The position numbers and the translations under genes were made by a program. From an uncultured Thermoanaerobaculum sp. (GTDB lineage: Bacteria > Acidobacteriota > Thermoanaerobaculia > Thermoanaerobaculales > Thermoanaerobaculaceae), in contig CALHAH010000036.1 of NCBI GenBank assembly GCA_937934115.1, positions 1 to 33,333 of the forward strand: a stretch of 33,333 bases of DNA, in the 5' to 3' direction. Numbering within the stretch: position 1 is the stretch's first letter; each line of letters starts with the position of its first letter. Of the stretch, positions 1,407 through 29,993 are shown piece by piece. Under the pieces are notes generated by a model that had not been told where the DNA came from, did no database searches, and saw nothing but the letters and a program-made list of their open reading frames with translations.

Positions 1407-1491
1407 CGAACCCATCCTCCTTTGCCTTTGTGCCCCGCTCCCGGGCGCGGGGCTTCTTGTTGCGGGGATGAGACCATGCTTTTTTTGTCAA
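1407..1491 (-). promoter_or_regulatory. Promoter-leader cassette, copy A
   Basis: Read on the minus strand: TTGACA (1486-1491), an A tract of seven, a conserved block GCATGGTCTCATCC, then a hairpin with arms GCCCCGC/GCGGGGC (1432-1438 and 1447-1453) around an eight-base loop, then GGAGG and the start of the Cys-rich peptide. Copies B, C and D keep the same order; E keeps the block and the hairpin. The TTGACA is a likely -35 box. A matching -10 is not clear, because the distance to any candidate hexamer changes with the A tract. Upstream of the TTGACA this copy diverges from B, C and D and lacks the CCAAA-N3-TTTGG dyad. Confidence 0.65.
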
Positions 1492-1679
1492 GCCCTCGTT
1501 TCCAAAGGAGGTGGGGCGAGGCGGAGAAAACCGGGGATACCCGTTCCTGGCGCCGCTCGTGGCACCCCCGTGCCAGGGGATCACCAACGGCACAAAGCAT
1601 CCACTCCGCTTGCGGTCGAAGATTTGCTTGTGCTCAAGCGCAACCTGACGGTATGGTCGTTTTCACCCCCAAAACCCCC

Positions 1680-1708
1680 TTGCATTTTCGTCAAAAAAGG
1701 GTCATATT
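1680..1708 (+). promoter_or_regulatory. Possible promoter of the moa-mod operon
   Basis: TTGCAT at 1680-1685 and CATATT at 1703-1708 are separated by 17 bases. This would place transcription start near 1715, just before the candidate Moco riboswitch. The match to the vegetative consensus is only moderate (three and four of six), so this is a suggestion based on spacing and position. Confidence 0.35.
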
Positions 1709-1711
1709 GAG

Positions 1712-1840
1712 GGTGTCTCCGACCCGGGCCGCCTAAAGGCGTGCGCCCAAGGCGGACGGGCGGTGGGCACCGGCGGGTTGCCGGTGGACCCCAAGGGCCG
1801 TCCTGGAAACGGGGCGACCTCCCGGCTTTGGAAAGGAGGC
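1712..1840 (+). ncRNA. Candidate molybdenum cofactor (Moco) riboswitch leader
   Basis: The 130 bases before moaA are packed with paired elements. CTCC (1717-1720) and CCCGGG (1723-1728) can pair with CCCGG (1821-1825) and with GGAG of the ribosome binding site (1835-1838). Inside are a CACCGGC/GCCGGTG hairpin (about 1769-1787) and other GC-rich stems. Position before moaA, multi-stem build, the GGAAAC...CCTCCCGGCTTTGG tract and an outer helix covering the Shine-Dalgarno all fit the Moco RNA motif known upstream of Moco biosynthesis and molybdate transport genes. If so, Moco sufficiency would block translation of moaA and perhaps the whole operon. I could not run a covariance model; the call rests on context and visible pairing. 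Confidence 0.55.
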
Positions 1841-1843
1841 CAT

Positions 1844-2812
1844 GTGACCGTCCAGCCCCCACCTCCCGTAAAACCACAAACGCTTAGGCTTTCCCTCACC
1901 GACCGCTGCAATTTGCGCTGTCGTTACTGTATGCCTGCCGAAGGCGTGGCCTTCATCCCACACCACCAGCTTCCCAGCTTGGAGGAGCTGGCCCACGCCG
2001 TGGCTTTTTTGGTGCAACACTTGCATGTGAACCGCGTAAAGCTCACCGGTGGTGAGCCGTTGGTGCGTAAGGGGGTGGTGGAGCTGGTGGGCCTTCTGAG
2101 GGCCATCCCAGGCATCGAGGAAATTTCCATGACCACCAACGGCACCCGCCTGTCGGCGCTGGCAGCAGAGCTTCGACAAGCGGGGCTTGCCCGCGTGAAC
2201 GTTTCCCTGGATACCTTAAACCGCGAGCGCTTCCGGGAGCTCACCCGCGGGGGTGAGGTCAGTGAGGTACTGGCAGGCATTGCTGCTGCGCAGCGGGAAG
2301 GGCTTGTGCCGGTGAAGCTCAACGCGGTGCTGCGGGCCTCCACCTTCCGGGATGACGTTCCCCAGTTGGTGACGTATGCCGCGCGGGAAAAGCTGGAGCT
2401 GCGCTTCATCGAGCTCATGCGCACCGGCACTGAAGCCGCATGGGCGGAGCGGGAATACGTAAGCGCCCGCGAGGTGCAGGCGTTCCTTGCCCAACAAGGC
2501 GAGCTCGTCCCGCTCGTGGGGCACGCAAACACTCCTGCCCGCCGCACGCTGTTCCGCTACTCCGGTGGAGAGGTGCTGCTGGGTTGGATCACCCCCGTTT
2601 CCCATAGCTTTTGTGATGCCTGTAACCGCTTACGCCTGGATGCTCAGGGGCAGCTGCGGCGCTGCCTTATGGATCCCCTGACCGTGCCGCTGGTGGCCAT
2701 GCTCCGAGAAGGGGAGGCCAAGGCCTTGGCAGCCCTCGGCCCGTACCTTGCGGGCAAAAGACCGCCAGCGGCTATGGACTCGCAGCTGCCCATGAGCGCT
2801 GTGGGAGGCTAG
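1844..2812 (+). CDS. moaA: GTP 3',8-cyclase MoaA
   Basis: Radical SAM enzyme that converts GTP to 3',8-cyclo-GTP, the first step of molybdopterin synthesis, in the cytoplasm. The start is GTG at 1844, four bases after GGAGG (1835-1839); the open frame runs further upstream, but only through the structured leader. At 322 residues the length is normal. The N-terminal [4Fe-4S] motif CNLRCRYC uses Cys22, Cys26 and Cys29. The second cluster motif SHSFCDACNRLRLD with a further Cys 13 residues on (RRC) is present. The protein ends in Gly-Gly, the conserved C-terminal tail that MoaA needs for activity. Its stop is two bases before the moaC start, and it leads the operon moaA-moaC-MOSC/mogA-modABC. 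Confidence 0.95.
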   Translation: MTVQPPPPVKPQTLRLSLTDRCNLRCRYCMPAEGVAFIPHHQLPSLEELAHAVAFLVQHLHVNRVKLTGGEPLVRKGVVELVGLLRAIPGIEEISMTTNGTRLSALAAELRQAGLARVNVSLDTLNRERFRELTRGGEVSEVLAGIAAAQREGLVPVKLNAVLRASTFRDDVPQLVTYAAREKLELRFIELMRTGTEAAWAEREYVSAREVQAFLAQQGELVPLVGHANTPARRTLFRYSGGEVLLGWITPVSHSFCDACNRLRLDAQGQLRRCLMDPLTVPLVAMLREGEAKALAALGPYLAGKRPPAAMDSQLPMSAVGG

Positions 2813-2813
2813 G

Positions 2814-3299
2814 ATGAGCGAGCTGACGCATCTGGATGCGCAGGGCCGCACGCGGATGGTGGACGTGGGGGAAAAGGCCCCCACCCAGCGTCGGGCGGTG
2901 GCCGCCGCTACCTTGATGGTTGGCGAGGCCATTGCCCAGGCCGTTCGCCAAGGGAAAACCCCCAAGGGTAACGTTTTTGAAGCTGCGCGCCTGGCTGGCA
3001 TTGCCGCTGCCAAACGCACGTGGGAACTCATACCCCTTTGCCACCAGCTCCCCCTGGACTGGGTGCAGGTGGATTTTACCTTGGAGGCTGACCGGATCCA
3101 CATCCGCGCTGAGGCCAAGGCCTTGGCCAAAACCGGCGTGGAAATGGAGGCTCTTACGGCAGCAGCGGTGGCGGGCCTTACCCTTTACGACATGCTCAAG
3201 GCCTTGGGCAAGGGGATGGTTTTAGAAAACCTGAAGCTTTTGGAAAAGGAAGGCGGCACGTCCGGCCTTTGGCGACGGGAGGAAAGCCATGCAAGGTGA
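2814..3299 (+). CDS. moaC: Cyclic pyranopterin monophosphate synthase MoaC
   Basis: Converts 3',8-cyclo-GTP to cyclic pyranopterin monophosphate together with MoaA. At 161 residues it has the normal length for MoaC. Recognisable family motifs include MVDVGEK near residue 15, KGNVFEAARLAGIAAAK, the LIPLCHQLPL stretch around residues 73-82 and KTGVEMEALTAAAVAGLTLYDM near residues 105-125. The GVEMEALT segment and the LCH segment carry the catalytic Lys/His/Glu surroundings. The start ATG is two bases after the moaA stop, and the reading frame overlaps the next gene by 11 bases, so translational coupling is likely. Confidence 0.95.
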   Translation: MSELTHLDAQGRTRMVDVGEKAPTQRRAVAAATLMVGEAIAQAVRQGKTPKGNVFEAARLAGIAAAKRTWELIPLCHQLPLDWVQVDFTLEADRIHIRAEAKALAKTGVEMEALTAAAVAGLTLYDMLKALGKGMVLENLKLLEKEGGTSGLWRREESHAR

Positions 3300-4251
3300 A
3301 GTGGCCTTTGTCTGTATATCGGAAAAGAAAGGCACACCGAAGCACGCCGTTCCCAGCGGAGAGCTCATCGCCGGCTTCGGTGTCGCCGGGGATGCCCACG
3401 GCGGCGATTGGCATCGGCAGGTAAGTCTTTTGGATGAAGCGGACATTGAGTTCATGCGCAGCAAGGGCTTGCACCTCAAGCCCGGGGCTTTTGGGGAAAA
3501 CCTGGTGGTACGGGGCTTGCCTTTGGATTCGTTGGGAATTGGTACTCAGCTGGCCATCGGTCAAGCCCAGCTGGAAATTACGCAAGTGGGGAAGGAGTGC
3601 CACACCCGCTGCGCCATTTACTACAAGACCGGGGATTGCATCATGCCGCGGGCGGGTCTTTTTGCGCGGGTCATCCGGGGTGGTGCCGTGGCACCAGGGA
3701 ACGTCATTTCGGTGGCACGACTGGTGCCCCGCGACGCGGTGGTAGCCGCGGTGATCACGGTTTCCGATACCGCCAGTCGCGGGGAAGCGGCAGATACGGC
3801 GGGACCCGCGGTTCAGGCTTTGCTCTCCCAACACCTCGGTGCCTTTGTGGTGGAAGCCGCGGTGGTCCCCGATGAACTACCGGTGATCCAAAAAACCCTC
3901 CGCGACCTGGCCAGCCGAGGACTGGATTTGATCCTGACCGTCGGCGGCACCGGCCTGGGACCACGCGATGTGACCCCGGAAGCCACCCTTGGGGTAATAC
4001 AGCGCCCAGTGCCGGGAATTGCCGAGGCCATGCGCGCCGCTTCCGCGCAAAAAACCCCTAAGGCTTGGTTGCAGCGCGGCCTCGCCGGGGTTTTGGGGCG
4101 CACGCTCATCGTCAACTTGCCTGGGTCGCGACGAGCTGCCAGCGAAAATCTGGAAGTGGTGTTACCGCTCTTGCCCCACGCCATACGTCTCCTGCGTGGA
4201 CACACGGCCCACCCGGAAACCGACCGCGAAAGGCAGGTAGCTTCAGCATGA
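3289..4251 (+). CDS. MOSC domain fused to molybdopterin adenylyltransferase (MogA/MoaB-like)
   Basis: A 320-residue two-domain protein. Residues 1-145 form a MOSC domain, with GVAGDAHGGDWHRQVSLL near the start, KPGAFGENLVVRG in the middle and the conserved Cys in GKECHTRCAIYYKTGDCIMP. Residues 150-320 form a MogA/MoaB domain with ITVSDTASRGEAADTAGP, the TVGGTGLGPRDVTPEA nucleotide-binding loop and NLPGSRRAASENLE. MogA adenylylates molybdopterin before metal insertion; MOSC domains bind or transfer the cofactor or its sulfur. The fusion would join late cofactor synthesis with handling of the finished cofactor, which is an inference. It overlaps moaC by 11 bases and shares an ATGA overlap with the downstream modA. 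Confidence 0.92.
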   Translation: MQGEVAFVCISEKKGTPKHAVPSGELIAGFGVAGDAHGGDWHRQVSLLDEADIEFMRSKGLHLKPGAFGENLVVRGLPLDSLGIGTQLAIGQAQLEITQVGKECHTRCAIYYKTGDCIMPRAGLFARVIRGGAVAPGNVISVARLVPRDAVVAAVITVSDTASRGEAADTAGPAVQALLSQHLGAFVVEAAVVPDELPVIQKTLRDLASRGLDLILTVGGTGLGPRDVTPEATLGVIQRPVPGIAEAMRAASAQKTPKAWLQRGLAGVLGRTLIVNLPGSRRAASENLEVVLPLLPHAIRLLRGHTAHPETDRERQVASA

Positions 4252-4976
4252 CAGCGCTGCTCCTTTTGGCCTTGGCTTCCCCACCACCGGAGCTTTTGGT
4301 GTTTGCCGGAGCTGCCAGCAAGCCGGTTTTGGACGAGGCGGCAGTGGCCGTGCAAAAGGAACTGGGCGTAAAGCTGGTTTTCTCCTACGGTGGCTCGGGA
4401 ACGGTGCTCTCGCAAATGGAGCTCGCTCGCCAAGGGGATCTCTACATCCCCGGGAGCCATGATTGGTTGGAACGGGCCATCCAAAGGCAGTTGGTGGATC
4501 CCAAAACCCGGGTGGACTTCGCTTTTTTGCGTCCGGCATTGTTGGTGCTCAAGGGCAACCCGAAAAACATTGGCACGCTGGCGGACTTGGCGCGAGAGGA
4601 TATCCGGGCAGCGCTGGCCGATCCCCGCACCGTGTGCGTGGGGGAGTACGGGGAAAAGGTGCTCAAGCGCGCCGGCCAATGGGAAAAGGTCATGCCCAAG
4701 CTGGGCCGCGCCCATTCCTGTGAGGCGGTGGCTAACCTCTTGGCTACCAAAACCGTGGACGCCGTGCTGGGGTGGGACGTGTTTGTTCACTGGTTTCCCG
4801 CAGAGGTGGAGGAGGTGCCGCTGCCAAAAGACCTTACTCCGGAGCAAGCCACCGTGCCGGGCGCGGTTTCGGTTTTTTCCACACATCCTAAGGAAGCTCT
4901 AGACGTGCTTCGTTGGCTGGCAGGACCCAAGGGGAAGGCCATTTGGCGCCAGTACGGCTACCGCACCGAGCCGTGA
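4248..4976 (+). CDS. modA: Molybdate (or tungstate) ABC transporter substrate-binding protein
   Basis: A periplasmic binding protein that captures molybdate or tungstate. The start is the ATG at 4248, whose first four bases overlap the previous stop (ATGA); this gives 242 residues. A short hydrophobic signal (MTALLLLALASPPPE) precedes the mature sequence. Family features are LLVFAGAASKPVLDEAA, the oxyanion-binding YGGSGTVLSQ stretch and GDLYIPGSHDWLERA. The end overlaps the modB start by three bases (GTGA). The place after Moco genes and before modB and modC makes the assignment firm; preference for Mo or W cannot be read from the sequence. Confidence 0.88.
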   Translation: MTALLLLALASPPPELLVFAGAASKPVLDEAAVAVQKELGVKLVFSYGGSGTVLSQMELARQGDLYIPGSHDWLERAIQRQLVDPKTRVDFAFLRPALLVLKGNPKNIGTLADLAREDIRAALADPRTVCVGEYGEKVLKRAGQWEKVMPKLGRAHSCEAVANLLATKTVDAVLGWDVFVHWFPAEVEEVPLPKDLTPEQATVPGAVSVFSTHPKEALDVLRWLAGPKGKAIWRQYGYRTEP

Positions 4977-5737
4977 GGCAGTCTCCTTTTGGTTTGGCCG
5001 CCACCACCTCCGCCGTGGTTCTGGCCTTGTTTGTGCTGTGGCTTTTGGCCAGTCTCGCGCGCCTGGCGGTGCTAGGACCTGGCCGAAAGCCGCCCACCGC
5101 CATCCTGGTGCCCTTGGGCTTGAGCTTAGCTTCCGCCAGCATGGCCACGCTATTCGCCCTGATGCTGGGAGTCCCCGCCGCCTGGTGGCTCGCCCGCAGC
5201 CGGTGGGGGGGACGTACGTGGGTGGCTTTGCTTTTGGACCTGCCGTTGGTGCTTTCCCCGGTAGCCTTGGGCACAGCGCTCTTGCTTTTCTTGCAGTTCC
5301 CCCCCGGCTCAACTTTGGAGAGGCTCATCGGCGTGACCTTCCGCTTTCCCGGAGTGGTGCTGGCTCAGTTTACGGTGGTTTTGGCCTTGGTGGTGCGTGC
5401 TGCCACCGCGGCTTTTGCCCAAGCAAGCCTTGAGCTGGAAAAACACGCCGTCACGTACGGCGCCACCAGGTGGTTCATCCTTACTCAGGTTACGCTGCCC
5501 GCCAGCAAACCTGGCCTTTTGGCGGCGGCGGTATTGGCCTTCGGCCGGGCCTTGGGAGAGTTTGGTGCCACCGTGACCGTGGCTGGCACCATTCCTGGGC
5601 GAACGGAAACCCTAGCCACTGGGGTTTACATGGCGCTCGCCGCCGGTGAGCTGCGGTTAGCTGCACAACTGGCCTTGGTCTTGGTGTTGGCGGCGGCTTT
5701 GGCCTTGGCTGCGGTGCGGTACTGGGAGAAAAGGTGA
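4973..5737 (+). CDS. modB: Molybdate ABC transporter permease ModB
   Basis: Integral membrane permease of 254 residues. The start is taken as GTG at 4973, which overlaps the modA stop; longer in-frame starts lie inside modA and would add a polar tail. About five to six hydrophobic segments are visible (for example TTSAVVLALFVLWLLASLA near residue 10 and the AAQLALVLVLAAALALAAV segment at the C-terminus). The cytoplasmic EAA-type loop that contacts the ATPase is seen as SLELEKHAVTYGATRWFILTQVTLP, followed by FGRALGEFGATVTVAG, a ModB hallmark. It ends in a GTGA overlap with modC. Confidence 0.92.
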   Translation: MRQSPFGLAATTSAVVLALFVLWLLASLARLAVLGPGRKPPTAILVPLGLSLASASMATLFALMLGVPAAWWLARSRWGGRTWVALLLDLPLVLSPVALGTALLLFLQFPPGSTLERLIGVTFRFPGVVLAQFTVVLALVVRAATAAFAQASLELEKHAVTYGATRWFILTQVTLPASKPGLLAAAVLAFGRALGEFGATVTVAGTIPGRTETLATGVYMALAAGELRLAAQLALVLVLAAALALAAVRYWEKR

Positions 5738-7593: not shown

Positions 7594-7637
7594 AAATTGA
7601 TGCTATCACCTCCCGGTTTCGTGTACGCTGTGCAACC

Positions 7638-10017: not shown

Positions 10018-10028
10018 AATGCCACCGG

Positions 10029-13904: not shown

Positions 13905-13965
13905 AAACTTTACAAGGTTTTAGCGTGGATCGGTCCAAAACCTTTGGCAGGGTTGGTGGACTCAT
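13905..13965 (-). promoter_or_regulatory. Decayed promoter cassette, copy R6
   Basis: On the minus strand, the dyad CCAAA-N3-TTTGG (13935-13947) and flanking bases GATCC/GGAC match the upstream part of cassettes B, C and D. TTGTAA at 13910-13915 stands where those copies have TTGACA, and the A tract is broken. No Cys-rich peptide or exported protein follows; the sequence runs into the convergent phosphotransferase gene. It is best read as an orphan relic of a former module. Confidence 0.45.
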
Positions 13966-14139: not shown

Positions 14140-16155
14140 TCAAGGCCTCTTTCCCTCCGCCTCCGGCAGCACCAGCGGCGGCACGGGCATAAAAGTTTCT
14201 TGCGGTGGCAAAGGGCTGGGGACAGCCCATTGCGCACAAACTCGCCCGTCCCAGTCCACCGCTTCCAGCGTCAAAGGTTGCCCCACCGGGGCCCGCCACA
14301 CCACTAGGGGTTGCTCTGGTGCCGGCGGAAAATTCGTGAAAAAGGAAAAGCCCTCCGGCAGCGGGAACCGTCCCGCTCGTCCCCAGTTCCACACGTAACG
14401 ACCGGGGTTACAGGTGGCGGCCAAGCGTTGGGAAATGCCGCCAGGAAGCACCGCCACCCCTGCCGCCGCCAAGCGAACGGAAACCGTGGCGTCTGCCCCT
14501 TCGGGAACGGTGGCAAAACCCAAAGCCACGTGAGGGTTGTTGCTAATAACGGTGAGAAAACCCGCACAACGCGGCACATCCGAAAGCACGGCTACACCCG
14601 AAGTTGCAATTCGCGTGCTCGCCACCAAAAGCCCGGGGGCATCGAAACACGTAAACGAAGCCATGTAAAAGCTTTCCCCATGACCTGTAGCCGTTTTTCC
14701 CTCTGCAGGCTCTTCAGTTTCCTGGTTCACCACCACGCTCACATCACGTCCAGGCCGCAGCTCCACGGTCACGTTCCGGCTCACCTCCGCTGGGCCGAAA
14801 AAACCTTCCGCTCCTTGCACCAACACCATGGCCTTTTCCGCCGCAATGCCCGGGCAGGAGAAAACACCCTGGCTATCCGTCGTTCCTTCGCAAACGGTCC
14901 CTCCCGGTCCGGCAATCCAGGTAGCCCTGGAAGCCACCGCCACCCGAACGTGTGGGGCAGCCCTGCCCTGGCGATCTTTGACAGTGATGGCAAACTTCCC
15001 CTGCGGGAGACGCAGCTCCAGCTCGGACTTGCGGCTTCCCGGTGCCACCAAAGCCTCATCGAAGACATGCAGGAACTGCCGTTGTTGGCACTCCAGGGAA
15101 AGGCGTACCGGCTCCTGGCGCCGCAACCGTAGGGAAAAGACAGCTGGCTCCTTCGCAACAGTGGTTGCTTCCCACAAGCCACCGTACCCAGTGGCCACCA
15201 CCCGGCAAGGCCAAAGCGCCTCGTCCACACCCGCAACCCGCCCCCGCAAGGTCCACGGCGCCAGCGGAACCGCAAGTGACACGTTGTCTTTCGGGGCAAT
15301 TTCCACGGCGCTGCGCCACAGGTAGTCACCAGCAGTTGTTCCAAGGCCCACTTGGGCAAGGTACCAGCCAACGGGAAGCTTGTCCCATACCACTTCACGA
15401 CCCGCCTCCAAAGCCACCTCCGCCACCGCCTGGGCACCGCTTTGGGCGGATTGCGTCCACAGGCTCCAAAGCGGGCGCAAAGAGAAGCGCAAGCTTCCCA
15501 GCGCCGCGGCTTCCTCCGGCATGCGGACCGAAAGCCCACCACCGGGTGGCAGAGACAGGCGCCCCAAATCGCCACCGTCGGGGGGCACCGTGACGTTCCA
15601 CACTACCCGGGCGGTTCCTTCCCCTTCAGCTGCCAAACTAACTCGGCTTTTTGCGGGAAGAAAAAGGGAAAACTTCCCATTTTCGTCGCTTATTGCTCCC
15701 AACTTCTCCAGCAAAAAGGCGCGCCCCTGCGGGGTGAGGCGAGGATCCCGGGCCAGCCCGGCGTAGTACACCCGAGCCCCCGCAAGCGGCTTGCCGAAAG
15801 CCTCCGCCACCACCGTACCGGAAACTTTCACTGCCGCACCCACAGGACAGGAAAAGGCCCCAGCCTTGGCCGCCGTGACCTCCACCGCCATGGGCGTATC
15901 GCCAAAGCCCCGCGGCGTGAACCCTGGGGCGGCACAGGAGAGCTCGTACGATCCAGGCGGAAGATGGGCGCCAATGGTGCCTGCCGCCGGCACCACCGCC
16001 TCGAAGACCACCTCATTGCTTTTTGGGTTGCGAAGCACAACGTACGCAGGTCCCGGGGGTGTGGCACCCCCAGGGCCCACCACATGAATCTCCACCGGCA
16101 CCAAGTCTCCCGTAAGGGCGGCCGATGCCAGTGATACCAAAAGGGCAAAGCTCAT
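14140..16155 (-). CDS. Large exported protein with carboxypeptidase-regulatory-like repeats (module B)
   Basis: A 671-residue protein starting MSFALLVSLASAALTGDLVPVEI, with a signal peptide cleaved near residue 14. It contains several repeats of the kind seen in CarboxypepD_reg-like/prealbumin-like beta-sandwich domains: LPPGSYELSCAAPGF near residue 70, then VKVSGTVVAEAFGKPLAGARVYYAG, and FAITVKDRQGRAAPHVRVAV with a following GVFSCPG. No enzyme motif is seen. It probably sits in the periplasm, at the outer membrane or outside the cell; no barrel or anchor is apparent. It follows the interrupted Cys-rich peptide gene at 16223-16504 by 67 bases, with a GGGTGGGGGT stretch before the ATG. It is similar in size and build to the protein at 16864-18903, suggesting paralogues. 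Confidence 0.8.
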   Translation of the reverse strand: MSFALLVSLASAALTGDLVPVEIHVVGPGGATPPGPAYVVLRNPKSNEVVFEAVVPAAGTIGAHLPPGSYELSCAAPGFTPRGFGDTPMAVEVTAAKAGAFSCPVGAAVKVSGTVVAEAFGKPLAGARVYYAGLARDPRLTPQGRAFLLEKLGAISDENGKFSLFLPAKSRVSLAAEGEGTARVVWNVTVPPDGGDLGRLSLPPGGGLSVRMPEEAAALGSLRFSLRPLWSLWTQSAQSGAQAVAEVALEAGREVVWDKLPVGWYLAQVGLGTTAGDYLWRSAVEIAPKDNVSLAVPLAPWTLRGRVAGVDEALWPCRVVATGYGGLWEATTVAKEPAVFSLRLRRQEPVRLSLECQQRQFLHVFDEALVAPGSRKSELELRLPQGKFAITVKDRQGRAAPHVRVAVASRATWIAGPGGTVCEGTTDSQGVFSCPGIAAEKAMVLVQGAEGFFGPAEVSRNVTVELRPGRDVSVVVNQETEEPAEGKTATGHGESFYMASFTCFDAPGLLVASTRIATSGVAVLSDVPRCAGFLTVISNNPHVALGFATVPEGADATVSVRLAAAGVAVLPGGISQRLAATCNPGRYVWNWGRAGRFPLPEGFSFFTNFPPAPEQPLVVWRAPVGQPLTLEAVDWDGRVCAQWAVPSPLPPQETFMPVPPLVLPEAEGKRP

Positions 16156-16222
16156 AGGCGACCCCCACCCTTGCTAGCATGGTGCCATCAATGACATACC
16201 TGGGCTAGAGCACAGTAAAGTC

Positions 16223-16504
16223 TTAAGGCCATGGCGCCCACCACCAATCCTGGTAGTCAATATCATCACTGCCACCGCCACCTCCTGGCGCTGGACACCT
16301 ACAGGATTCTTGGCAATCCTCACAAAAGCCGTACGGGCCACAATAGCAATCATAGTAACCACTTTGCGCACTGGCGCAGTAGCACAAGCGCGGCCCCTGC
16401 ACCGCCCTTTGGCATTGAGCCATAGCTCCTTAGGGAAAGGTACACAGCACAGTGAAGATAGCCGCGATCCATGCGTGCGTAAAAACGGCCACTGCTTTTC
16501 TCAT
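16223..16504 (-). pseudogene. Cys-rich exported peptide with in-frame TAA in its signal peptide (module B)
   Basis: Read from the ATG at 16504, behind GGAGG and cassette B, the frame encodes a signal-like start (MRKAVAVFTHAWIAAIF, then TVLCTFP). A TAA follows at 16430-16432, and the same frame then continues with GAMA-QCQ and a Cys-rich mature part down to 16223. GAMA before Gln-Cys is a good signal peptidase site, and the paralogue in module C has LPGKAVAQVC at the same place, so the stop replaces one codon of the signal peptide. The mature part has about 12 Cys, a run of five Gly and an aromatic tail (YQDWWWAPWP). An internal ATG at 16423 could restart translation but without an export signal. 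Either a nonsense mutation, read-through or a base error explains this. Confidence 0.7.
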
Positions 16505-16755
16505 TTCTTCCTCCCTTCCTGCCTCCGCGCTTCCCGGCGCGGGGCTGTTGGTTTGGAGGATAAGACCATGCTTTTTTTTGTCAAGACCCCTGGATTCGTC
16601 CAAAACGTTTGGCACGCCTTGGTGGATTCGGAGAAAACCTGGATAGGGGTTTGGAGCTTCCCGGCGTGGTGGGGGACGGGGGTGGCTCCTTACGAACATG
16701 TCCTGAAGGCTGCGGCTTGCCCGCTCCACGAAGGGATCTTCCTTGAGCAAACCTC
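16505..16755 (-). promoter_or_regulatory. Promoter-leader cassette, copy B
   Basis: On the minus strand: a long conserved upstream region (to about 16755), the dyad CCAAA-N3-TTTGG at 16600-16612, TTGACA at 16579-16584, an A tract of eight, GCATGGTCTTATCC, a hairpin CCGCGC/GCGCGG (16525-16530 and 16537-16542), GGAGG and the start codon at 16504. Over roughly 250 bases it is nearly identical to copy D (21227-21475), including stretches well upstream of any core promoter. Open frames crossing it differ in amino acids between copies, which argues against it being coding. Confidence 0.7.
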
Positions 16756-16863
16756 AACCTATAAGGTTGCCCCATGGCTCGGAAACGACGGGTAAGTTCC
16801 CCAGAGTCCGCCAAAACGGGCATCCTCCGGCCGTAACCTAGCATCGGGAAAAAAGTGGTCCGC

Positions 16864-18903
16864 TCATGGGGAAACGGGCTTTTCCCGGAGTTCTCGGGTT
16901 TCCCCAGGGCCCACCACAAACCATTTTCCCCGCCACACCGGTTTGCAAGCTTCGTCCGTGACCACCGGCCGGAAACGGCCTGGCGCGACCCGCTCCCATC
17001 GCTTGGAGATACGCCCCGCAGTAGTGGCATCGGCACCAAACGTCAGGACCTCAAAGGGATCCGTGCCCAGAAGTGCTCCATTTTCGGTTTCCAATGTGCA
17101 AAAAACGCCGCCCTCTGGCAGGCGCTCCGGTGACCAGGCCACTGTAGCCGCACTGGAAGCCTGAAATACCCCCAAAAAGCCTCGTTTTTCCCCTGGCAAA
17201 AAGATCTTGAAATGGCCCAGCGACTTTGCGTGGGCCTCTGAGGTTAGCAGTGCCACCAATAGCGAGCCGTCCACGTCAGGCATATTGGGGATCACCGCCT
17301 CACCCTTTTCATCCAGTACTCCAACCGTAAGTCCCTCAGCGCCCTTAGGGGAAAACTGCAGCTGAGCGCCCACCGGGTTGCCTTCCTCATCCACCACCCG
17401 AAGGCTAACCTTTTTGCCCGGAGAAAGGCGCAAAATGAGCGACGAATCCACCACCTGCTCTTCTATAGCCCAGCCCAAATCCAAACGATAAGCCCAGGCA
17501 ACGAGCGGCCCTTCCGGGGCGGCAGGGCAGGAAAAACGCCCGTTCGCATCGGTCTTGCCACGCCAACTGAACCCGCTGCCGCTGCAAGATTGCGAATTAC
17601 TTAGGCGGACTTCCGCAAAAAACACGGGGTTGCCGTTAACATCCACAACCTGCCCATTCACCGGGCGCACAGCCGCTGCAAGTTGGATGTCCTTTTTACC
17701 GGCACCCTCTGGCATGTGCACGGTTTTTAGTGGAACTAGGCTTTCACCCGCACCCTCCCGCCGCCGCAAGCCCAGAACCCAGGGCCCCGAAGCCTCAAGC
17801 AGAACTGCAAACTCGCAAGCGCTTGCGCTTTGCCAAGTCCCAGCCACGCGGTAGTGAAACCGTGAAGAGAAAGCCCAAGGCTCAAAGTCCGAGCAGCGAG
17901 CCTTATCAAGACCGGAAACCTTTACCGTAACCTCCCACCGGGTGGGCGTAAGCACGACTTCCTGAAAACTGGAAGGTGCCACAATAAAGGGAGGCGTGCT
18001 GTGGGAAGGGCGGTAGGTCATCCCTTGGGGGATGCGACCCCGGCTGCGACGGAGCACGCTTTCCGGCAACGTGCTCAAAAGCGCCCAATACGTTCCTGAT
18101 GGTACCGACGCAAACAAAACAGTACCATCCTCCCCCAGAGGCTTTGAAAGCAAAGCCATGCTTACACTTTTAGGGTCGAGAAGGCGCGGGGTGTCTTCTC
18201 TTGGCTCGCCAGGAGGAACTAACTCCACCCACCATTTCTCTTGAGTAAGCTCTTTGCCCCAAGGCTCCACCCGCACCCTGACGCTTGCTCCGCCCTCAAG
18301 TGCCACGTCTCCAAGCTCAATTCCCTCAGAGCTCACCACCAGGGGTCCAATCACTTCCATAGCGTGCTCCGGCGCCCTGGCCACCAGAGTAACCCTGTCG
18401 CCCGGAAGAAGCCCCAAGGCAAAATGGCCCTCCGTACCGCTCACGCCTTGGTGTTTCAACCGCAAATGCCTCTCCAGCATCTCACTTTCGAAGGGTAGCT
18501 CCCGGAGGGCAAGAAAAGACGGTTCCACCTTGCCGCCAACCAGGGGTTTCCCATCTCGCTTGGACAACAGTCGACCCTTCACCGCCACCAAAGGGAGCAA
18601 GTCACAGCGCACTCTCTGCGGTTTGCCATCCTGCAAAATCAAACTCATGCTCTTGTTGGCGTGCTTCTCAGCGCCGCAGACAACGGTGTACTCACCCGGG
18701 TTGAGGGAAAGCTTCCAGGCGGGGAGGGAAGAAGGCAATTCCGTTTCCGCAACTAGACTCTTGCCTTGAAGAATTGCTGCGTAACGAAGAGTGGCAGAAA
18801 TGTCGGCACCTAGGCTGGAAAAGGTAATCTCCACATCCACAGGCGCTCCCGCTGCCTTCCCGCCGCAAAGCGCTACCGCCAACACTAACAACCTCAGCCT
18901 CAT
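16864..18903 (-). CDS. Large exported protein with carboxypeptidase-regulatory-like repeats (module C)
   Basis: A 679-residue protein. The start is ATG 18903 (MRLRLLVLAVALC), five bases after GGAGG; an in-frame ATG at 18915 would overlap that site. The signal peptide ends near GGKAAGA. Repeated beta-sandwich motifs are visible: LPAWKLSLNPGEYTVVC near residue 65, VKGRLLSKRDGKPLVGGKVE near 110, VNGQVVDVNGNPVFFAEVRL and VSLRVVDEEGNPVGAQL further on, each typical of CarboxypepD_reg-like domains. No catalytic motif was seen. It is similar in length and build to the protein of module B. A GC-rich hairpin at 18921-18944 lies between it and the Cys-rich peptide gene before it, so expression may be tuned inside the operon. 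Confidence 0.82.
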   Translation of the reverse strand: MRLRLLVLAVALCGGKAAGAPVDVEITFSSLGADISATLRYAAILQGKSLVAETELPSSLPAWKLSLNPGEYTVVCGAEKHANKSMSLILQDGKPQRVRCDLLPLVAVKGRLLSKRDGKPLVGGKVEPSFLALRELPFESEMLERHLRLKHQGVSGTEGHFALGLLPGDRVTLVARAPEHAMEVIGPLVVSSEGIELGDVALEGGASVRVRVEPWGKELTQEKWWVELVPPGEPREDTPRLLDPKSVSMALLSKPLGEDGTVLFASVPSGTYWALLSTLPESVLRRSRGRIPQGMTYRPSHSTPPFIVAPSSFQEVVLTPTRWEVTVKVSGLDKARCSDFEPWAFSSRFHYRVAGTWQSASACEFAVLLEASGPWVLGLRRREGAGESLVPLKTVHMPEGAGKKDIQLAAAVRPVNGQVVDVNGNPVFFAEVRLSNSQSCSGSGFSWRGKTDANGRFSCPAAPEGPLVAWAYRLDLGWAIEEQVVDSSLILRLSPGKKVSLRVVDEEGNPVGAQLQFSPKGAEGLTVGVLDEKGEAVIPNMPDVDGSLLVALLTSEAHAKSLGHFKIFLPGEKRGFLGVFQASSAATVAWSPERLPEGGVFCTLETENGALLGTDPFEVLTFGADATTAGRISKRWERVAPGRFRPVVTDEACKPVWRGKWFVVGPGETRELREKPVSP

Positions 18904-18920
18904 GAGGGCCTCCAAAGGAG

Positions 18921-18944
18921 AGCCCCCTCACGCGGGAGGGGGCT
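18921..18944 (-). terminator. Hairpin inside module C operon (attenuator-like)
   Basis: Perfect nine-base arms AGCCCCCTC and GAGGGGGCT around a six-base loop. It stands between the stop of the Cys-rich peptide (18965) and the ribosome binding site of the next gene. There is no T run after it on the minus strand, so full termination is unlikely; partial attenuation, mRNA protection or a processing point are possible. Confidence 0.45.
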
Positions 18945-18964
18945 TTCAGGTGCTGCTATCCAAA

Positions 18965-19399
18965 CTATGTGCCACACTCCCAGGCCGCATACTCGGCGGA
19001 ACAAAACCAAAAATTTCCGTCCCAAAGGTTAACAAACCGCGCCGGCGTTCCACCACCACCCCCAGCCCCGCCGCATAGTCCTTCTACCTTACAATAGGGA
19101 CTGCACTCCCTGATCTTGCTTATCTCTGTGATCTTGTTACTCGGGTTAGCTGGATCAGGCTTTTCAGTCACCTCTATTTTTTCTGTGCAGCGTTCTCCAG
19201 CATCACACTGCGCGTAGCCAGAAAAGGCTTGCTCACAAATGCCTCGCGCTCCCACCGTAGGACCACCGGGTACATACCATTCCTGCCCACACGTGGAGCA
19301 CACTTGTGCCACCGCTTTACCCGGCAGCATTAGCAAGCTTCCCAGTACCACATAGCTTACCGAGAGGCCACTGAAGAAATTTACCAATGTTTTTCTCAT
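18965..19399 (-). CDS. Cys-rich exported peptide (module C)
   Basis: A 144-residue protein starting at ATG 19399 (MRKTLVNFFSGLSVSY), behind GGAGG and cassette C. An open frame exists further upstream but only through the leader hairpin. The signal peptide ends LPGKAVA, cleaved before QVCSTC. The mature part carries about ten Cys in an N-terminal domain (CSTCGQ, GICEQAFSGYAQC, AGERC, ECSPYC, GLCGG), a polar middle with Lys/Glu, then a Gly run (AGGGGG) and an aromatic tail with FWFC and WEC. The Gly run followed by an aromatic tail is shared with the interrupted module B peptide. No named family was recognised. It likely forms disulfides after export. Confidence 0.75.
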   Translation of the reverse strand: MRKTLVNFFSGLSVSYVVLGSLLMLPGKAVAQVCSTCGQEWYVPGGPTVGARGICEQAFSGYAQCDAGERCTEKIEVTEKPDPANPSNKITEISKIRECSPYCKVEGLCGGAGGGGGTPARFVNLWDGNFWFCSAEYAAWECGT

Positions 19400-19540
19400 C
19401 TCTTCCTCCCTTCCTGCCTCCGCGCTTCCCGGCGCGGGGCTGTTGGTTGCGGGGATGAGACCATGCTTTTTTTTTGTCAAGACCCCTGTATTCGTCCAAA
19501 ACGTTTGGCACGCCTTGGTGGACGCGAAAGGGGGGGGAGA
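19400..19540 (-). promoter_or_regulatory. Promoter-leader cassette, copy C
   Basis: On the minus strand: dyad CCAAA-N3-TTTGG at 19496-19508, TTGACA at 19475-19480, an A tract of nine, GCATGGTCTCATCC, a hairpin CCGCGC/GCGCGG (19420-19425 and 19432-19437) and GGAGG before the start at 19399. Similarity to copies B and D fades upstream of about 19525, so this copy has only the core plus dyad. The 19540-19880 stretch beyond it holds no supported gene. Confidence 0.68.
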
Positions 19541-19880
19541 GCTGTTTTAAGGTTTTCTTGGCGTGGTGGAAAAGCTGAAAAGCACCTTGGGTGTGACAAA
19601 CCATCCGGTGGGGGCTGCCAGGGCAAGAGGTGAGGGGCGAAGGTCGCGTTCGCGGGAAGATAGGTCAGCTAGTTCCGCAAGCAGCAAAAAAAGTCGGAAA
19701 CGTTTGGACGGGCACATCCACCGGCGCGTTCTTGCATGGATAAAAGCAAAACCCACTCGTATGCCTAAAGCTTGCACAGCAAGGCCTCCTAAGCAAAGCG
19801 CTCAACAAGCCCGTTACAGATACCGTTTAAACGCCTCTGGCTACCGGGCACGAGAAGAAACAACTGCCCCGAGGGAAAAC

Positions 19881-20891
19881 TTAGAGGACGCTTTTTCTCA
19901 TTGTTTTGATAATGGCTGCCAGGTTTCCGTCGAATTCCGGAAGCAGAGCTTTCTTTCCACCCCAGAGCTCTTCCACAAATTCGCGCGAAGGCGGCGCGAA
20001 CGTTACCAGCTCTTTGTGGGCACGTTTAAGCTCCAATCTGCTCCCTAACCATGGGTTTTTACCCAACTCGTCAGGCCAGGTTTCTAAGACGGCCGAGATG
20101 CGACCGCCTTTCACATCCCCTTCTGCCGTTTTAACCCTGAGAGCATCGTACATTGCAAGAAAAGCGGTGAAGGCGTTATGCGCCTCTTGCGGAAGCTGAT
20201 GTAAGGCGTACCGAATCATCCCTTGCGGACAAGAGCCCGGGCAGGAGGGGAGGAGCATGCCGTTCACATCCCAGAAAAGCACGCGCTTCGTCTCCTTCGC
20301 CTCAAATTGTCTTTGCAAGGCTACGTAGTCTTTTTTAATTTCCGCGGGCAGGCTTTCCGGGCTCTCCGCCTGCTCCAGTTCGGCTTTGTACTGATTTAAA
20401 AACTGCCCTAAAAGTCGCCTTTCCTCCTCCGCTTGCGGTTGGTATTCGCCAACTACCAAATAGCTGCCGCTGGCGGGATGGCCAAGAACCAAGATGCCGC
20501 CTTCCAAAAAAGAAAATAAAGCCTGTACACCTCGTACCTTATCTGAACCGCAAGTCAAAGTAAAAACTTGATATGTGACATCGCGGTCAGGCTCAAACAT
20601 ACCGCGGCGCGCAGGGGATACAAACTCAAGATAGGGCTTCATGAGCCGCGCTTTGCTTGGCCAATCCAGAGCCCGATCCCAGTTGTCTTCAATTTCCTTC
20701 AAAATGCCCTGCAGTTGCCGCCGTTCGTTTTGGTCCAAAGCTGAAAGCTTAGGGGCCATCCCCTCCCAAAGCCACACATGACAGGCCGCACGTTCTTCTC
20801 GTATTACTGAACCGGTATACGCAGCCCCGGGGAAGGGCATGATCCCTGAGCTGACAGCAAAAAGCAAAGCTGCATTGAAGAAAACCCCCAT
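19881..20891 (-). CDS. Exported protein of unknown function (module D)
   Basis: A 336-residue protein. The start is ATG 20891 (MGVFFNAALLFAVSSG), preceded by GGAGGAGG at four bases; the upstream in-frame ATG lacks a site. A signal peptide runs to about residue 24 (PFPGAAYT). The mature protein is mixed alpha/beta with long polar helices (ALDQNERRQLQGILKEIEDN, QAEEERRLLGQFLNQYKAEL) and a Cys pair in SCPGSCPQG. I do not recognise the family and see no catalytic motif. It begins 23 bases after the Cys-rich peptide of module D, the same close spacing as in module A. Confidence 0.78.
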   Translation of the reverse strand: MGVFFNAALLFAVSSGIMPFPGAAYTGSVIREERAACHVWLWEGMAPKLSALDQNERRQLQGILKEIEDNWDRALDWPSKARLMKPYLEFVSPARRGMFEPDRDVTYQVFTLTCGSDKVRGVQALFSFLEGGILVLGHPASGSYLVVGEYQPQAEEERRLLGQFLNQYKAELEQAESPESLPAEIKKDYVALQRQFEAKETKRVLFWDVNGMLLPSCPGSCPQGMIRYALHQLPQEAHNAFTAFLAMYDALRVKTAEGDVKGGRISAVLETWPDELGKNPWLGSRLELKRAHKELVTFAPPSREFVEELWGGKKALLPEFDGNLAAIIKTMRKSVL

Positions 20892-20914
20892 AGCGCCTCC
20901 TCCATTGCTACATT

Positions 20915-21226
20915 TTAAGCTTCGCACTCATCAATAAACTCTGGGTAGTCAATGGCACATTGCAGGGCACACCGCTCGTACCTGCGTTGTGCTTCTTCCA
21001 CGCACCAGGCGCAACACAATCGGCACCAACGAAGCAAGCGGCACAGCGCCAAATCATTCTGCAGCTCATAACAACAAGCATTACAGCACGCATCACCGGG
21101 ATCATCGCCCCAGACCAGACGGCAACCACCAGCCCACGCTGGAGACGGCAGCCACAACCCGCATAAGCTGAGGGTTATGAGGGCAAGTGCCAACAAAGCC
21201 TTATGTTTCCCCTTTGTATGCAGCAT
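20915..21226 (-). CDS. Cys-rich exported peptide (module D)
   Basis: A 103-residue protein starting at ATG 21226 (MLHTKGKHKALLALALITLS), with AAGGAGGAAAGGA just before it. The signal peptide ends PSPAWA, cleaved before GGCRLVWG. The mature part of about 70 residues has 13 Cys, many in pairs (ACCNACCYEL, RLCCAWCVEE), and an acidic C-terminus (DECEA). The CC and CxxC density could suit a metal-binding or multiply disulfide-bonded helical peptide; that is inference. It shares no obvious sequence with the peptides of modules A, B and C beyond signal and Cys content. Confidence 0.78.
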   Translation of the reverse strand: MLHTKGKHKALLALALITLSLCGLWLPSPAWAGGCRLVWGDDPGDACCNACCYELQNDLALCRLLRWCRLCCAWCVEEAQRRYERCALQCAIDYPEFIDECEA

Positions 21227-21475
21227 TCCTTTCCTCCTTTCCCCCGCTCCCGGGTGCGGGGTTTTTGTCCAAGGGATGAGACCATGCTTTTTTTTTTGTC
21301 AAGACCCCTGGATTCGTCCAAAACGTTTGGCACGCTTTCGTGGCTTTGGAGAAAACCTGGATAGGGGTTTGGAGCTTCCCGGCGTGATGGGGGAGTGGGG
21401 TGGCTCCTTACGAACATGTCCTGAAGGCTGCCGCTTGCCCACACTACGAAGGGCTCTTCCTTGGGCAAGCCGAAA
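21227..21475 (-). promoter_or_regulatory. Promoter-leader cassette, copy D
   Basis: On the minus strand: long upstream homology to copy B, dyad CCAAA-N3-TTTGG at 21318-21330, TTGACA at 21297-21302, an A tract of ten, GCATGGTCTCATCC, a hairpin CCCCGC/GCGGGG (21242-21247 and 21256-21261) and a purine-rich ribosome binding site before 21226. The hairpin arms differ from copies B and C but still pair, that is, both sides changed together. Confidence 0.7.
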
Positions 21476-21566
21476 GTGCGTCCAGAAGTGTTCAAGACAG
21501 AAGGATGGCAGGGCTTTTGGCGCGTGCCGGCGAACTCGGAAACGCTACGGTCCTCGCTCCTGTGAG

Positions 21567-21627
21567 GCCGCCGCGAAGAAACGTGGCGCCGCCGCGAAGA
21601 AACGTGGGGCCGCCGCTCCGCGGCGGC
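21567..21627. repeat. Tandem 21-base repeat running into a perfect inverted repeat
   Basis: The 20-base unit GCCGCCGCGAAGAAACGTGG occurs at 21567-21586 and 21588-21607, and its first eight bases again at 21609-21616. That third, partial unit forms one arm of a perfect inverted repeat GCCGCCGC-TCC-GCGGCGGC (21609-21627). Further short GC-rich palindromes follow up to about 21830. No gene covers the region. Confidence 0.7.
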
Positions 21628-22430
21628 TATGAACACATTCCCGCAAAACCCGCGCGGAGCGCGGGTCCCACGTGTTTTGAGTTTTTTCTCTGTGGAGCCG
21701 GCGCTCCTGCGCTGGCGAGCAGAAAAAACCCTCGCCAAGCGCGCGGCCCTTCGCGCCGTGCTGAGCTGGCCACGGGTGCCTGGTGAAGGTTGGCCGTGCG
21801 GCCCGCACCTACGGCCCCAGCCGCTGCGCGGCTTTTTCACAGCCGACCCAGGACTCACAAGACGGTACGAAACGTCTTCACCTCACACCTGTCACCGCCC
21901 CTCCCCTCCGTGCCAGGTTTTTAGGGACGTAGGCGGCACTGGGTCCTCAGTTGCGGAATCCCAGCGGTTTGGGCGCCGCCGGGGCCCCAACAACGACCTC
22001 TGCAGTGGTTTCGTTTTTGCGCCAAAAAACCGCATAAAGCAACCTTCTGTGCGTGGAAACACAGCCACGGATCGAGTGGTTGCATTGCACCTGGCTCATA
22101 AAAAAGGCACCCGCAGTTAGCAACCGCCTGGATTTCCGCTGCCCACCACGGGGCGACAGCCGCTGAACGAAGCCTAAAGTTCATCGGGGGCGTAAAGCAC
22201 TGTGCCACCATGGCCGCCAAAGCCGCGTACATTGTCAAAAAATCGGCAAGGCAACCCCACCATCTGAAAGCCACTTCAGGAACCTGGCCCCCAGAGTCTT
22301 CGCGAAAAAAAGCGGAGATAGCCCAGATAGGCCTGCCCTCTGCCCCGTAATGAGCTCTTCAAAAAGGGCTTGGGTTCGCCGCCTTTGCGCCACGGAAAAG
22401 CGAAAAGCAGTAAGAGAGCTGGATGCGCTG
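21628..22430. other. Gene-poor stretch, probably decayed
   Basis: All six frames are broken or lack family features. One minus-strand frame (22274 to 21921) has a weakly signal-like start and a few Cys, but no ribosome binding site and no cassette; it is not called as a gene. I see no RNA gene here. Confidence 0.35.
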
Positions 22431-22439
22431 GTGCTTTGG

Positions 22440-22890
22440 GACCTCCTCCTGTCCCTAGGGGAAAGGCGGCGGCTTTTGCGGCCGGGAAAGCCCCTGGGTG
22501 CGCGAAAGGCGTTTAAAGGTGAGAGGCAGCGTGGCACCACCTGGGCGCCACAGCCCCTGGATTTCCCCGGTTCTTTCGCGCCACTGGCCGCGAAATTCGG
22601 CCCCTATGGCCCGCAGCTCCAGGCGAAGCTGGTTGCCGTAAACCATTCCTCGTCACCTGGGAGCCCCATAGGCCCCTGGTCCACGCTGTCCAACGTGGCC
22701 TTCCAAACACCGCTTTCCCTGCGCTGCAGGTGGAGCACCAGCCGCAGCTGTTACCCAGCCACGCTCGCAACCCTAACCAATCCCCTGAAAGTGTTTCCTG
22801 AGGCAACGCCGGTTGTGCCGTGCAAAAGGCGAAAATGCAAAGCAAGCGATTAACAAGGCCTTTTTTTGTATCTTTACCCCCAGTAACCTC
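22440..22890 (-). pseudogene. Remnant of exported alpha/beta hydrolase with N-terminal beta domain
   Basis: Pieces in different frames join into one recognisable protein start: a hydrophobic signal (KKALLIACFAFSPFA), then PALPQETLSGDWLG, then QLRLVLHLQRRESGVW with KATLDSVDQGP, then GNQLRLELRAIGAEFRGQW and GLWRPGGATLPLTFKR, ending RPQKPPPFP. This order matches the small beta domain that precedes the serine hydrolase domain in a family of exported alpha/beta hydrolases. At least two frame changes, one TAA inside the beta domain and a TAG right after PPPFP break it. The catalytic domain that should follow is not found downstream. It is a clear decayed gene; the family name is from memory of the motif, not from a search. 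Confidence 0.65.
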
Positions 22891-23961
22891 ACTTCCGACC
22901 CGAAAAAAAATTTCAAATGTTTCGCCATAGGCGGAAAGGCTACCCACCGAAAAAAAGCTTCCTGCGGAAGGCTTCTACCCACCTGCGGCTTGAAAAGACT
23001 TCCAGATAGATTTCGTAAAGCCGCGATTTATGTGCTTCAAAGCTGGGGGCCTCTCGGCACGCCAAAGAGGGATGAACGTACTGAGGGTTTTTGGCCGCTG
23101 CTTGCGGCGCCAGTTTTTCCAACACGCTGAACGGGCCTCGAAGGCGGAGCCAAAGGGTCGGAATTGAGCTCTTGCCAAAGCGGAAGGAGCTTTCCAAAGT
23201 CTTTAAAGGACCGTTTCAGCAGTGGGAGCTCGCTAAAAGGAAGCCCGCAGCACCCCCGTAGGGTTCGGTGGGGACCCACGATGAGGTCGCCTCCGCTGCT
23301 GTTGCAACCCCGGGCCTGATCCTTTAAAGCTTCCCCCCTGCATTCGGCGAATATGAGAATTCGCGGCCACTCCGACGGGAAAGCCCAAAACCTTCTGTAA
23401 CCATCAAGAAATGGCGGTTGCGGTGGTGGCGCAAGAAAGAGCGTATGCGAGGCGCAATGTCCCCGATCAAGGCCCCAAAAGCGCTAGGAAAACCCAAGGC
23501 CCAGTGGCCAAAAGGCAGCCACCTAAGGCAAACCACCACGCCGGGCGGCAGGCCCACCCATCGGCCCGGCCCTTCCGGACACCAAGCCCGGCGAGAACAA
23601 AAGACACGCTGGCAGGGAGAGCGGCCCCAACCACCGCCCGATGGACCTGTCGCCAAATTTTTGGATGTGCCATTTTTGGCCCACGCGAATGCCCATGAAA
23701 GCGTTGCGCCCCATTTCCGCTACCAGCGGAAAAGAAAAAACCCTACGAAAAAAACGCGAATAATATGGGTACAAGGGCGCGAATGGGCTTTTCGTTGACA
23801 AGCTCGCCCAGGATGCCCTGTGCAGCTCCAGCACCCCTGCTGCAGAACTGAAGGTCGGAACAAAACAAACGCTGCAAATAAAGGGAAAAACCCATGCCCG
23901 CGCATCCAGGAAAGGTTTCCACGCGGAAGGCGAACCCCAGAACGGGCGAGATGGGCAAAAA
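22891..23961. other. Long stretch without an intact gene
   Basis: Hydrophobic runs occur in two overlapping minus-strand frames around 23750-24100 (for example LLSLPAIVYFHRVGWLLCGLL), which may be the debris of a membrane protein broken by frameshifts. No frame gives a convincing complete protein, and no family was recognised. Base composition is more AT-rich in patches than in the flanking genes. Confidence 0.35.
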
Positions 23962-24369
23962 CTACAAGAGAGCAAACCACAAAGAAGCCACCCGACACGA
24001 TGGAAATATACGATGGCCGGAAGCGACAACAACAATGTCCCCCAAACGGTTGGCCAAGCAAGCCCGCCCGGGAATGCCATAAAAACTGTGGACCAGCACA
24101 CGTTTTTTGAGATGGGCCCGCGAAAACCCCCATACAACACTGCCATTGATTGAGCCACCTTTTTTGTGACGTAGCAAAAATTCCCAATGCCGTTTTCCTG
24201 CCGTTTGCCTATAGAAGGCGGAATCTCTGACGTTCAGCCTGAGCAAAGGTATTTTCTTCGCCGCTTCTTGCGTATTTGCTATTGCCGGTGGCGCAGCCGA
24301 TCCGCGCAACAAAGCACCAATGCCGGCGCTGGCACCGTATTTCCGCAGTTTGCGTCTGGAGTTTTTCAT
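23962..24369 (-). CDS. Doubtful 135-residue ORF behind cassette E
   Basis: Starts at ATG 24369 (MKNSRRKLRKYGASAG) exactly where the other cassettes place their peptide start, with a purine-rich AAGGGGAAAAAAG before it. The start is basic and then Ala/Gly-rich, ending APPAIA-NTQ, which looks like a secretion signal; a twin-Arg is present but no full Tat motif. Unlike the other module peptides it has almost no Cys, and its C-terminal half looks random, with hydrophobic runs in the other frames. It is either a decayed gene or a different cargo. Confidence 0.3.
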   Translation of the reverse strand: MKNSRRKLRKYGASAGIGALLRGSAAPPAIANTQEAAKKIPLLRLNVRDSAFYRQTAGKRHWEFLLRHKKGGSINGSVVWGFSRAHLKKRVLVHSFYGIPGRACLANRLGDIVVVASGHRIFPSCRVASLWFALL

Positions 24370-24450
24370 CTTTTTTCCCCTTGTTTCTTCTCCCGTCCCC
24401 GGGCGCGGGCTTGTGGTCGGCGGGATGAAAACATCCTTTACCAGGATCGC
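24370..24450 (-). promoter_or_regulatory. Promoter-leader cassette, copy E (diverged)
   Basis: On the minus strand the block GGATGTTTTCATCC aligns with GCATGGTCTCATCC of the other copies, followed by a shortened hairpin CCCG/CGGG (24392-24409) around the same CCCGGGG-type loop. The TTGACA and A tract are lost; GGTAAA stands in their place. It is probably inactive. Confidence 0.5.
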
Positions 24451-29985: not shown

Positions 29986-29993
29986 GCCACCCC

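Follow-up and report, generated by a model that had tools for sequence, protein, structure and literature searches.

IS481-type relics beside promoters in an uncultured Thermoanaerobaculum: a two-part repeat and a probable case of promoter docking

To our knowledge, promoter-directed transposition in bacteria has been described for one transposase superfamily. TnGBS, ISLre2 and some ISKra4 elements insert in a fixed orientation upstream of sigmaA promoters, with the right inverted repeat toward the promoter and at a distance of 15-17 bp (or 15-16 bp) from the -35 box, and the authors, drawing a parallel with Ty3, propose that the initiation complex is contacted (PMC3942029, PMC4701971). The present analysis concerns a repeat in a 33,333-nucleotide (nt) stretch of an uncultured Thermoanaerobaculum sp. 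(contig CALHAH010000036.1; hereafter the window), which is the whole of contig C36 of a 2.42-Mb, 52-contig genome, G000. An earlier, sequence-only reading had taken this repeat for one mobile promoter-leader cassette, present in five copies (A to E), that swaps cargo behind a single control element. The cassette is instead a composite of a shared promoter-leader and the broken right end of a decayed insertion sequence (IS) of IS481 type. Very probably, a subgroup of IS481 elements docks on promoters, the cassette being the joint of such a relic and a native promoter-leader. For comparison, G000 was examined together with 20 relatives (21 genomes), the congeners being a sister species, G001, and G002.

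A repeat of two parts

The five copies are real and stand above chance. Their common block, GCATGGTCTCATCC, has exact matches at 1466, 19453 and 21274, a match with a single mismatch at 16558 and one with three at 24423, always on the minus strand; at up to three mismatches the window holds 8 matches where 1.81 are expected, a number reached by 0 of 100 shuffles. A 54-nt family is common to all of A-E. The shared minus-strand order is TTGACA, A-tract, GCATGGTCTCATCC or near it, GC-rich hairpin sequence, purine-rich ribosome site and start codon, with E degraded and lacking the -35. Copies B and C are 98% identical across 55 nt and 92% across 91 nt; B and D are 92% identical across 182 nt upstream of the block and 86% across about 245 nt. 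The similarity of B and D over some 250 bases is not quite what had been described, most of it coming from a transposon relic that A and E lack (bar a doubtful 18-nt trace upstream of A, at about 1522-1539, with a score reached by 1 of 500 shuffles). Copy by copy, with signal peptides judged by eye, the features are as follows.

16591-16753, minus strand: right end of the element in copy B, with an internal deletion common to D, ending ..GACGAATCCA
16585-16590, minus strand: the 6 nt GGGGTC that separate the element end from the -35 TTG in copy B
16496-16587, minus strand: promoter-leader of copy B (TTGACA 16584-16579, 8 A, TATCCT, hairpin sequence 16545-16521, ribosome site)
16430-16504, minus strand: signal-peptide-like start of copy B, reaching an in-frame TAA
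16223-16423, minus strand: Cys-rich 66-amino-acid frame of copy B, downstream in the same frame, its ATG after AAGGAG
19487-19522, minus strand: final 36 nt of the element in copy C
19391-19483, minus strand: promoter-leader of copy C (TTGACA 19480-19475, 9 A)
18965-19399, minus strand: exported Cys-rich protein of copy C; G001 orthologue of 146 amino acids, 68.5% identical over 127 amino acids
21309-21471, minus strand: right end of the element in copy D
21215-21305, minus strand: promoter-leader of copy D (TTGACA 21302-21297, 10 A)
20915-21226, minus strand: exported Cys-rich protein of copy D, 103 amino acids
1407-1494, minus strand: promoter-leader of copy A (TTGACA 1491-1486, 7 A)
1206-1415, minus strand: exported peptide of copy A, 69 amino acids; syntenic G001 counterpart with the same ending
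24361-24447, minus strand: degenerate leader of copy E, -35 lost
13926-13963, minus strand: short relic of the element end, weak (82% over 39 nt) and with no -35 at +6

When the whole genome was searched with copy B, 45 matching pieces were found, the majority covering only the region upstream of the -35, and the leader by itself was clear at five places: the four copies A to D and a further one on contig C19. Since leader and upstream repeat differ in their genome-wide distribution, they are two repeats that have been joined in B, C, D and C19, and on this ground a single mobile promoter-leader cassette was rejected. The upstream half also stands before, among others, rplU, rimP, ribH, a kinase gene, an aroD-type gene and a tRNA-Gly gene (protein names read from sequence), that is, at promoters unrelated to the peptides.

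What is the upstream repeat? In 23 stretches taken around the genome matches of copy B, it runs several hundred nt further, copy pairs are about 70-94% identical, and similarity ends close to the -35. The right third reads as the end of a DDE transposase, with frameshifts common to the copies. At one relic PF13683 (rve_3) lies over its cut-off; in a G001 copy with an open frame, the C-terminal 56 amino acids match NF033577 (IS481) at E 2e-6, far under the full-length cut-off, and rve_3 below its cut-off. No Mutator-type model matched, only rve_3 in Pfam and, in NCBIfam, IS481 plus one unrelated weak model. The right end of the element is ..GGACGAATACA, with a sharp end at ..GACGAATACA facing the gene. 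Left ends like TGCGTACGTTCC..TGGCACG were found in L016, L018, L021 and L028 and diverged versions in L013 and L027, 570-970 nt from the right end. The right end in reverse complement is TGTATTCGTCC..TGGCACG, so that TGGCACG is common to both ends and forms terminal inverted repeats of the TG..CA kind in these six copies. The upstream part is thus an IS481-family right end, from an element that is decayed and non-autonomous. Its left half (e.g., in L018, L027 and L029) contains GC-rich palindromes, CCGGCGCAGGAGCGCCGGCCCCACA and GGGACCCGCGCTCCGCGCGGG, which recur in several orders and may be a family of the repetitive extragenic palindromic type built into the element.

Among the 20 relatives only G001 has the element, and the transposase end was found in G000 and G001 alone among 147 genomes of the class (at E 1e-8). 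A search of G000 for an intact transposase gave no NF033577 match at E 1e-20; only relics are present, with shared frameshifts. Thirty IS481 loci from the phylum gave 12 weak C-terminal matches, none with the ..ATACA end and, at a constant distance after it, a promoter, and viral contigs gave 0 exact matches to the element end. Ten contigs of G000 (C4, C5, C16, C21, C29, C31, C35, C37, C38 and C48) have an element copy no more than about 500 nt from one of their ends, and the true copy number may therefore exceed the count.

Element ends and the -35 box

The position of the relics was counted from their right ends. A pattern that contains no -35 yielded 24 of these (its reversed control, 0), and L029 was added from the copy B genome search, giving 25; the trace at A, the weak relic at 13926-13963 and L030, whose contig stops short of the right end, were left out. 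TTG lies exactly 6 nt past the element end in 17/25 and 7 nt past it in 2/25, other offsets from 0 to 24 occurring at most twice each. When B, C and D of the window are set aside, the figures are 14/22 and 2/22, against an expectation of 1.87% at random positions (binomial for 14/22, about 2e-19). A -10 box (at least 4/6 matches, spacer 16-18) is present in 18/22, compared with 2.6% at random. In both element copies of G001, 6 nt separate the end from TTGACA.

The promoters are older than the insertions. The starts of 12 genes behind relics were searched in G001 and G002, the empty-site comparison covering the relics; L017, L018 and L025 had no match in either congener, and L019 had a weak coding match in G002 only. 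In all eight loci with a G001 orthologue (L010, L012, L014, L015, L021, L023, L024 and L027), the -35/-10 pair is present there and the element is absent, the register being exact in L015, L021 and L012 and within a few bases in the other five. At L014, the TTTGACA seen in G001 has been lost from G000. On the upstream side of the junction the G001 DNA is unrelated or, at L021 and L024, resumes beyond the element. With promoters standing in 8/8 element-free loci, the promoters came first.

The same geometry is seen in intact relatives. The nearest plasmid transposases are those of ISKpn28 and its kin (45.7% over the last 69 amino acids) and one of Nitrosophilus labii (46%), for whose copy the left end was not found. 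From 29 records, with L148 left out, 19 distinct right flanks were obtained: TTG stands at +5 in 13, every other offset up to 19 is found at most twice, and a -10 is in place in 11. Exact 5-nt target duplications flank both sides in 10 of the 14 copies whose left end could be read, and the right copy abuts the -35. Instances are TCTCC/TTGCCT (a hok locus), CACTC/TTGACT (upstream of a gene for colicin V immunity), ACCGG/TTGACC (where TATCAT follows at 17 nt) and CCTCC/TTGCAA. Among the relics L021 has the sole visible target duplication, its left flank being GTCCCC and its right 6 nt GGCCCC (5/6). Copies of the ISKpn28 group occupy 2405 places in plasmids and 1578 in E. coli, and the chromosome of E. 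coli IAL7255 (L161) carries an ISKpn28-like IS481 element at 37 places, a ready insertion-site data set.

How might such docking proceed? The transposase, or a complex of it with RNA polymerase/sigma at the promoter, would pick the DNA just upstream of the -35 as its target, and the right end would be joined beside the -35, the gene keeping its promoter and the element gaining a harmless home. In G000, the element, once docked upstream of a leader promoter, decayed, and the joint of relic, promoter and leader was then duplicated locally into B, C and D; B and D even have the internal deletion of the relic in common. Guidance to the promoter presumably involves contact of the transposase with the -35 DNA or with bound RNA polymerase holoenzyme. 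A wider proposal, which we make tentatively and to which we give a little under an even chance, is that an IS481 subgroup spread across Acidobacteriota, Campylobacterota and Enterobacteriaceae evolved promoter docking through contact with RNA polymerase/sigma at the -35, independently of Mutator-type elements and with the target duplication flush with the hexamer; it would be a bacterial parallel of Ty3 at tRNA-gene promoters.

Several observations weigh against docking. Six of the 25 relics have no TTG at +6 or +7 (seven if the weak relic at 13926 is included), and, of the six, L028, L029 and L031 show no convincing promoter. The five other relic left ends match their right 6 nt poorly. Near-duplicates (two hok variants, two TTGCAA, two TTGTAA) are included in the 19 intact flanks, so independent targets number fewer than 19; three of the intact flanks without TTG at +5 are rearranged, and L156, although scored as a hit, is doubtful, its right duplication being missing. 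The distance differs by one base between intact relatives (5) and relics (6). Finally, no autonomous copy was seen in G000 or the sampled relatives (the 147 class genomes and two genome-contig scans).

It is well known that IS right ends can carry outward-facing -35 boxes, and TTGACA is the commonest hexamer at the docking place, as would be expected if the element carried its own -35 and copies landing 17 nt before a -10 had been kept as hybrid promoters. However, mean pairwise identity, 0.86 over the terminal 15 nt of the element, falls to 0.37 over the following 15, and conservation is poor in the six bases that separate the end from the -35; the promoterless copies keep GACGAATACA or one change of it, not TTG; the sister species has the promoters without the element; and in the intact relatives the bases adjoining the end are target duplication. 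An element-borne -35 was rejected as very improbable. It is also improbable that insertion was random and only promoter-proximal copies survived, perhaps as an upstream activating sequence that needs fixed spacing: the last 75 nt are indeed somewhat better conserved (0.84-0.86, against about 0.7-0.8 in most inner bins), which selection on a promoter-proximal sequence could explain, as could terminal-repeat constraint, but the fixed spacing is already seen in intact, little-diverged copies of Enterobacteriaceae and Nitrosophilus, before decay could select, together with target duplications where both ends were read. A variant of docking, not an alternative to it, is that the transposase directly recognises the TTG or -35 DNA rather than bound RNA polymerase. 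This is a serious possibility, if one that we would on balance bet against. In relics and intact set alike, no single feature is stronger than the TTG at the docking place, whereas L013, L014 and L016, which lack TTG, and the intact L164, which has a poor -35, have a well-placed -10 (at least 4/6 in the three relics), fitting a whole promoter complex; for L014, the TTTGACA still present in the sister species means that decay of the -35 explains the case equally well.

There is, finally, the original idea of one promoter-leader cassette moving ahead of unrelated exported peptides. In its favor, the DNA upstream of B, C and D is 92-98% identical, B and C share their first codons, the proteins behind B, C and D have no BLAST match to each other, and the leader stands before many exported proteins. 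However, in G001 or G002 the leaders of A, C and C19 are again found with the orthologous peptides: the G001 orthologue of peptide C lies at the syntenic place and has a leader of its own, the C19 peptide has a 58% identical orthologue in G002, and A has a G001 counterpart in which clear sharing is limited to the last residues. Inheritance is thus vertical, except that the joint was recently duplicated locally at B, C and D. There was no sign of a recombinase, of a repeat border, or of another genome carrying this leader on a different peptide at the same place. Swapping of cargo is thus improbable, and docking upstream of a vertically inherited leader is preferred.

The leader, its peptides and their neighbors

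The downstream part of the composite is a native sigma70-type promoter and short leader, marking a regulon whose members in this genus are small exported proteins, most of them Cys-rich. In the 21 genomes, a covariance model built from eight leaders matched at nine sites of G000 and six of G001, at a single site of G002 and, weakly (E 0.08), at one of G005, which belongs to another genus; the other 17 genomes had none at E 0.1. With 9 sites in G000 and 8 in three of the 20 relatives, the outcome that would have refuted the earlier reading, an absence of further copies, did not occur, and its idea of one control element ahead of varied exported proteins is right: the nine sites outside the training set all stand just upstream of a small protein with a signal-like start, most of them Cys-containing. 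(As exceptions, L105 and L109 have few or no Cys in the part read, that of C46 is very short, and that of C39 is frameshifted.) In the window, the leader lies directly before an exported-peptide start in A, C and D, as had been described, while the B frame has an in-frame TAA and E is degenerate. Copies B and D are absent from the syntenic stretch of G001, where both leaders lack the element; the leader therefore predates the element.

In peptide gene B, the in-frame TAA lies near the end of the signal-like part and is followed, in frame, by AAGGAG and ATG; the G001 counterpart of A (L094, about 1220-1450) has an in-frame TAA at a comparable place. These stops may reflect either decay or stop-restart translation.

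The hairpin is shared mainly as sequence. Two-sided changes number 0 in 8 sequences and 2 in 15, and 77 of 500 shuffles reach 2; single-sequence folding gives z below -3 only in B and C, of the six folded. No Rfam family matches the leader over its gathering score, the sole match in the window being the riboswitch listed below. The hairpin could protect the 5' end of the messenger RNA. The A-tract between -35 and -10 has 7, 8, 9 and 10 bases in A-D and about 15 in L103, with spacers of about 15-18 in A-D, and such variation could tune the promoter or make it phase-varying, as a length-variable switch.

A small peptide is followed by a larger protein in all five cases examined (A, B, C, D and C19), most of the larger proteins having a signal-like start. 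Other features of the window are:

16864-18915, minus strand: large secreted-type protein (CarboxypepD_reg) downstream of peptide C; G001 orthologue 70% identical
14140-16155, minus strand: large secreted-type protein (CarboxypepD_reg) downstream of peptide B
1705-1854: molybdenum cofactor (Moco) riboswitch, RF01055, 66.9 bits, preceding a moaA-like gene and a run of moa/mod genes

At 26991-30006, near the Cys-rich peptides, a radical-SAM/SPASM peptide-maturase-like gene lies beside an ATP-binding cassette (ABC) exporter. The best models for the radical-SAM gene are Clo7bot and TIGR04463, both below cut-off; these genes could not be tied to the peptides, the stretch having no match in the 30 kb examined of the syntenic G001 contig.

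Comparison with known systems

A search of the open literature, with ISfinder entries outside its scope, gave no recognised report of promoter docking by an IS481 element. If docking is real, a second, unrelated lineage with flush, oriented insertion at promoters would represent convergent evolution of a safe-haven strategy, and how a transposase finds a promoter would become directly testable with a common element, ISKpn28, in E. coli. The leader, for its part, marks a regulon of small exported Cys-rich proteins in an Acidobacteria-type lineage and supplies a model with which to search for it.

How does the element compare with those already described? It resembles IS ends with outward -35 boxes, the makers of hybrid promoters, in that an IS right end adjoins a -35, but here the -35 belongs to the target and not to the IS. 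Like miniature inverted-repeat transposable elements (MITEs) and other non-autonomous IS derivatives, the relics occur in many copies with shared, frameshifted transposase remains and imperfect terminal repeats. Typical MITEs, on the other hand, are shorter than the 570-970 nt of the relics, which also have a left half of GC-rich palindromes. With ISKpn28 and related IS481 elements the relics share the ..ATACA end and the docking geometry, although the ISKpn28 group is intact, occupies as many as 38 places in a single E. coli genome and has 5-nt rather than 6-nt spacing. Like the TnGBS integrative and conjugative elements, ISLre2 (p-MULT 3) and some ISKra4 elements (p-MULT 4), the present lineage inserts in a fixed orientation upstream of sigma70/A promoters. 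Those elements use Mutator-superfamily transposases and keep 15-17 bp (or 15-16 bp) from the -35, whereas here the transposase is of the IS481/rve type and the distance to the TTG is 5 nt (intact relatives) or 6 nt (relics). The present lineage thus works as they do but, with another transposase and another distance, is no member of their group.

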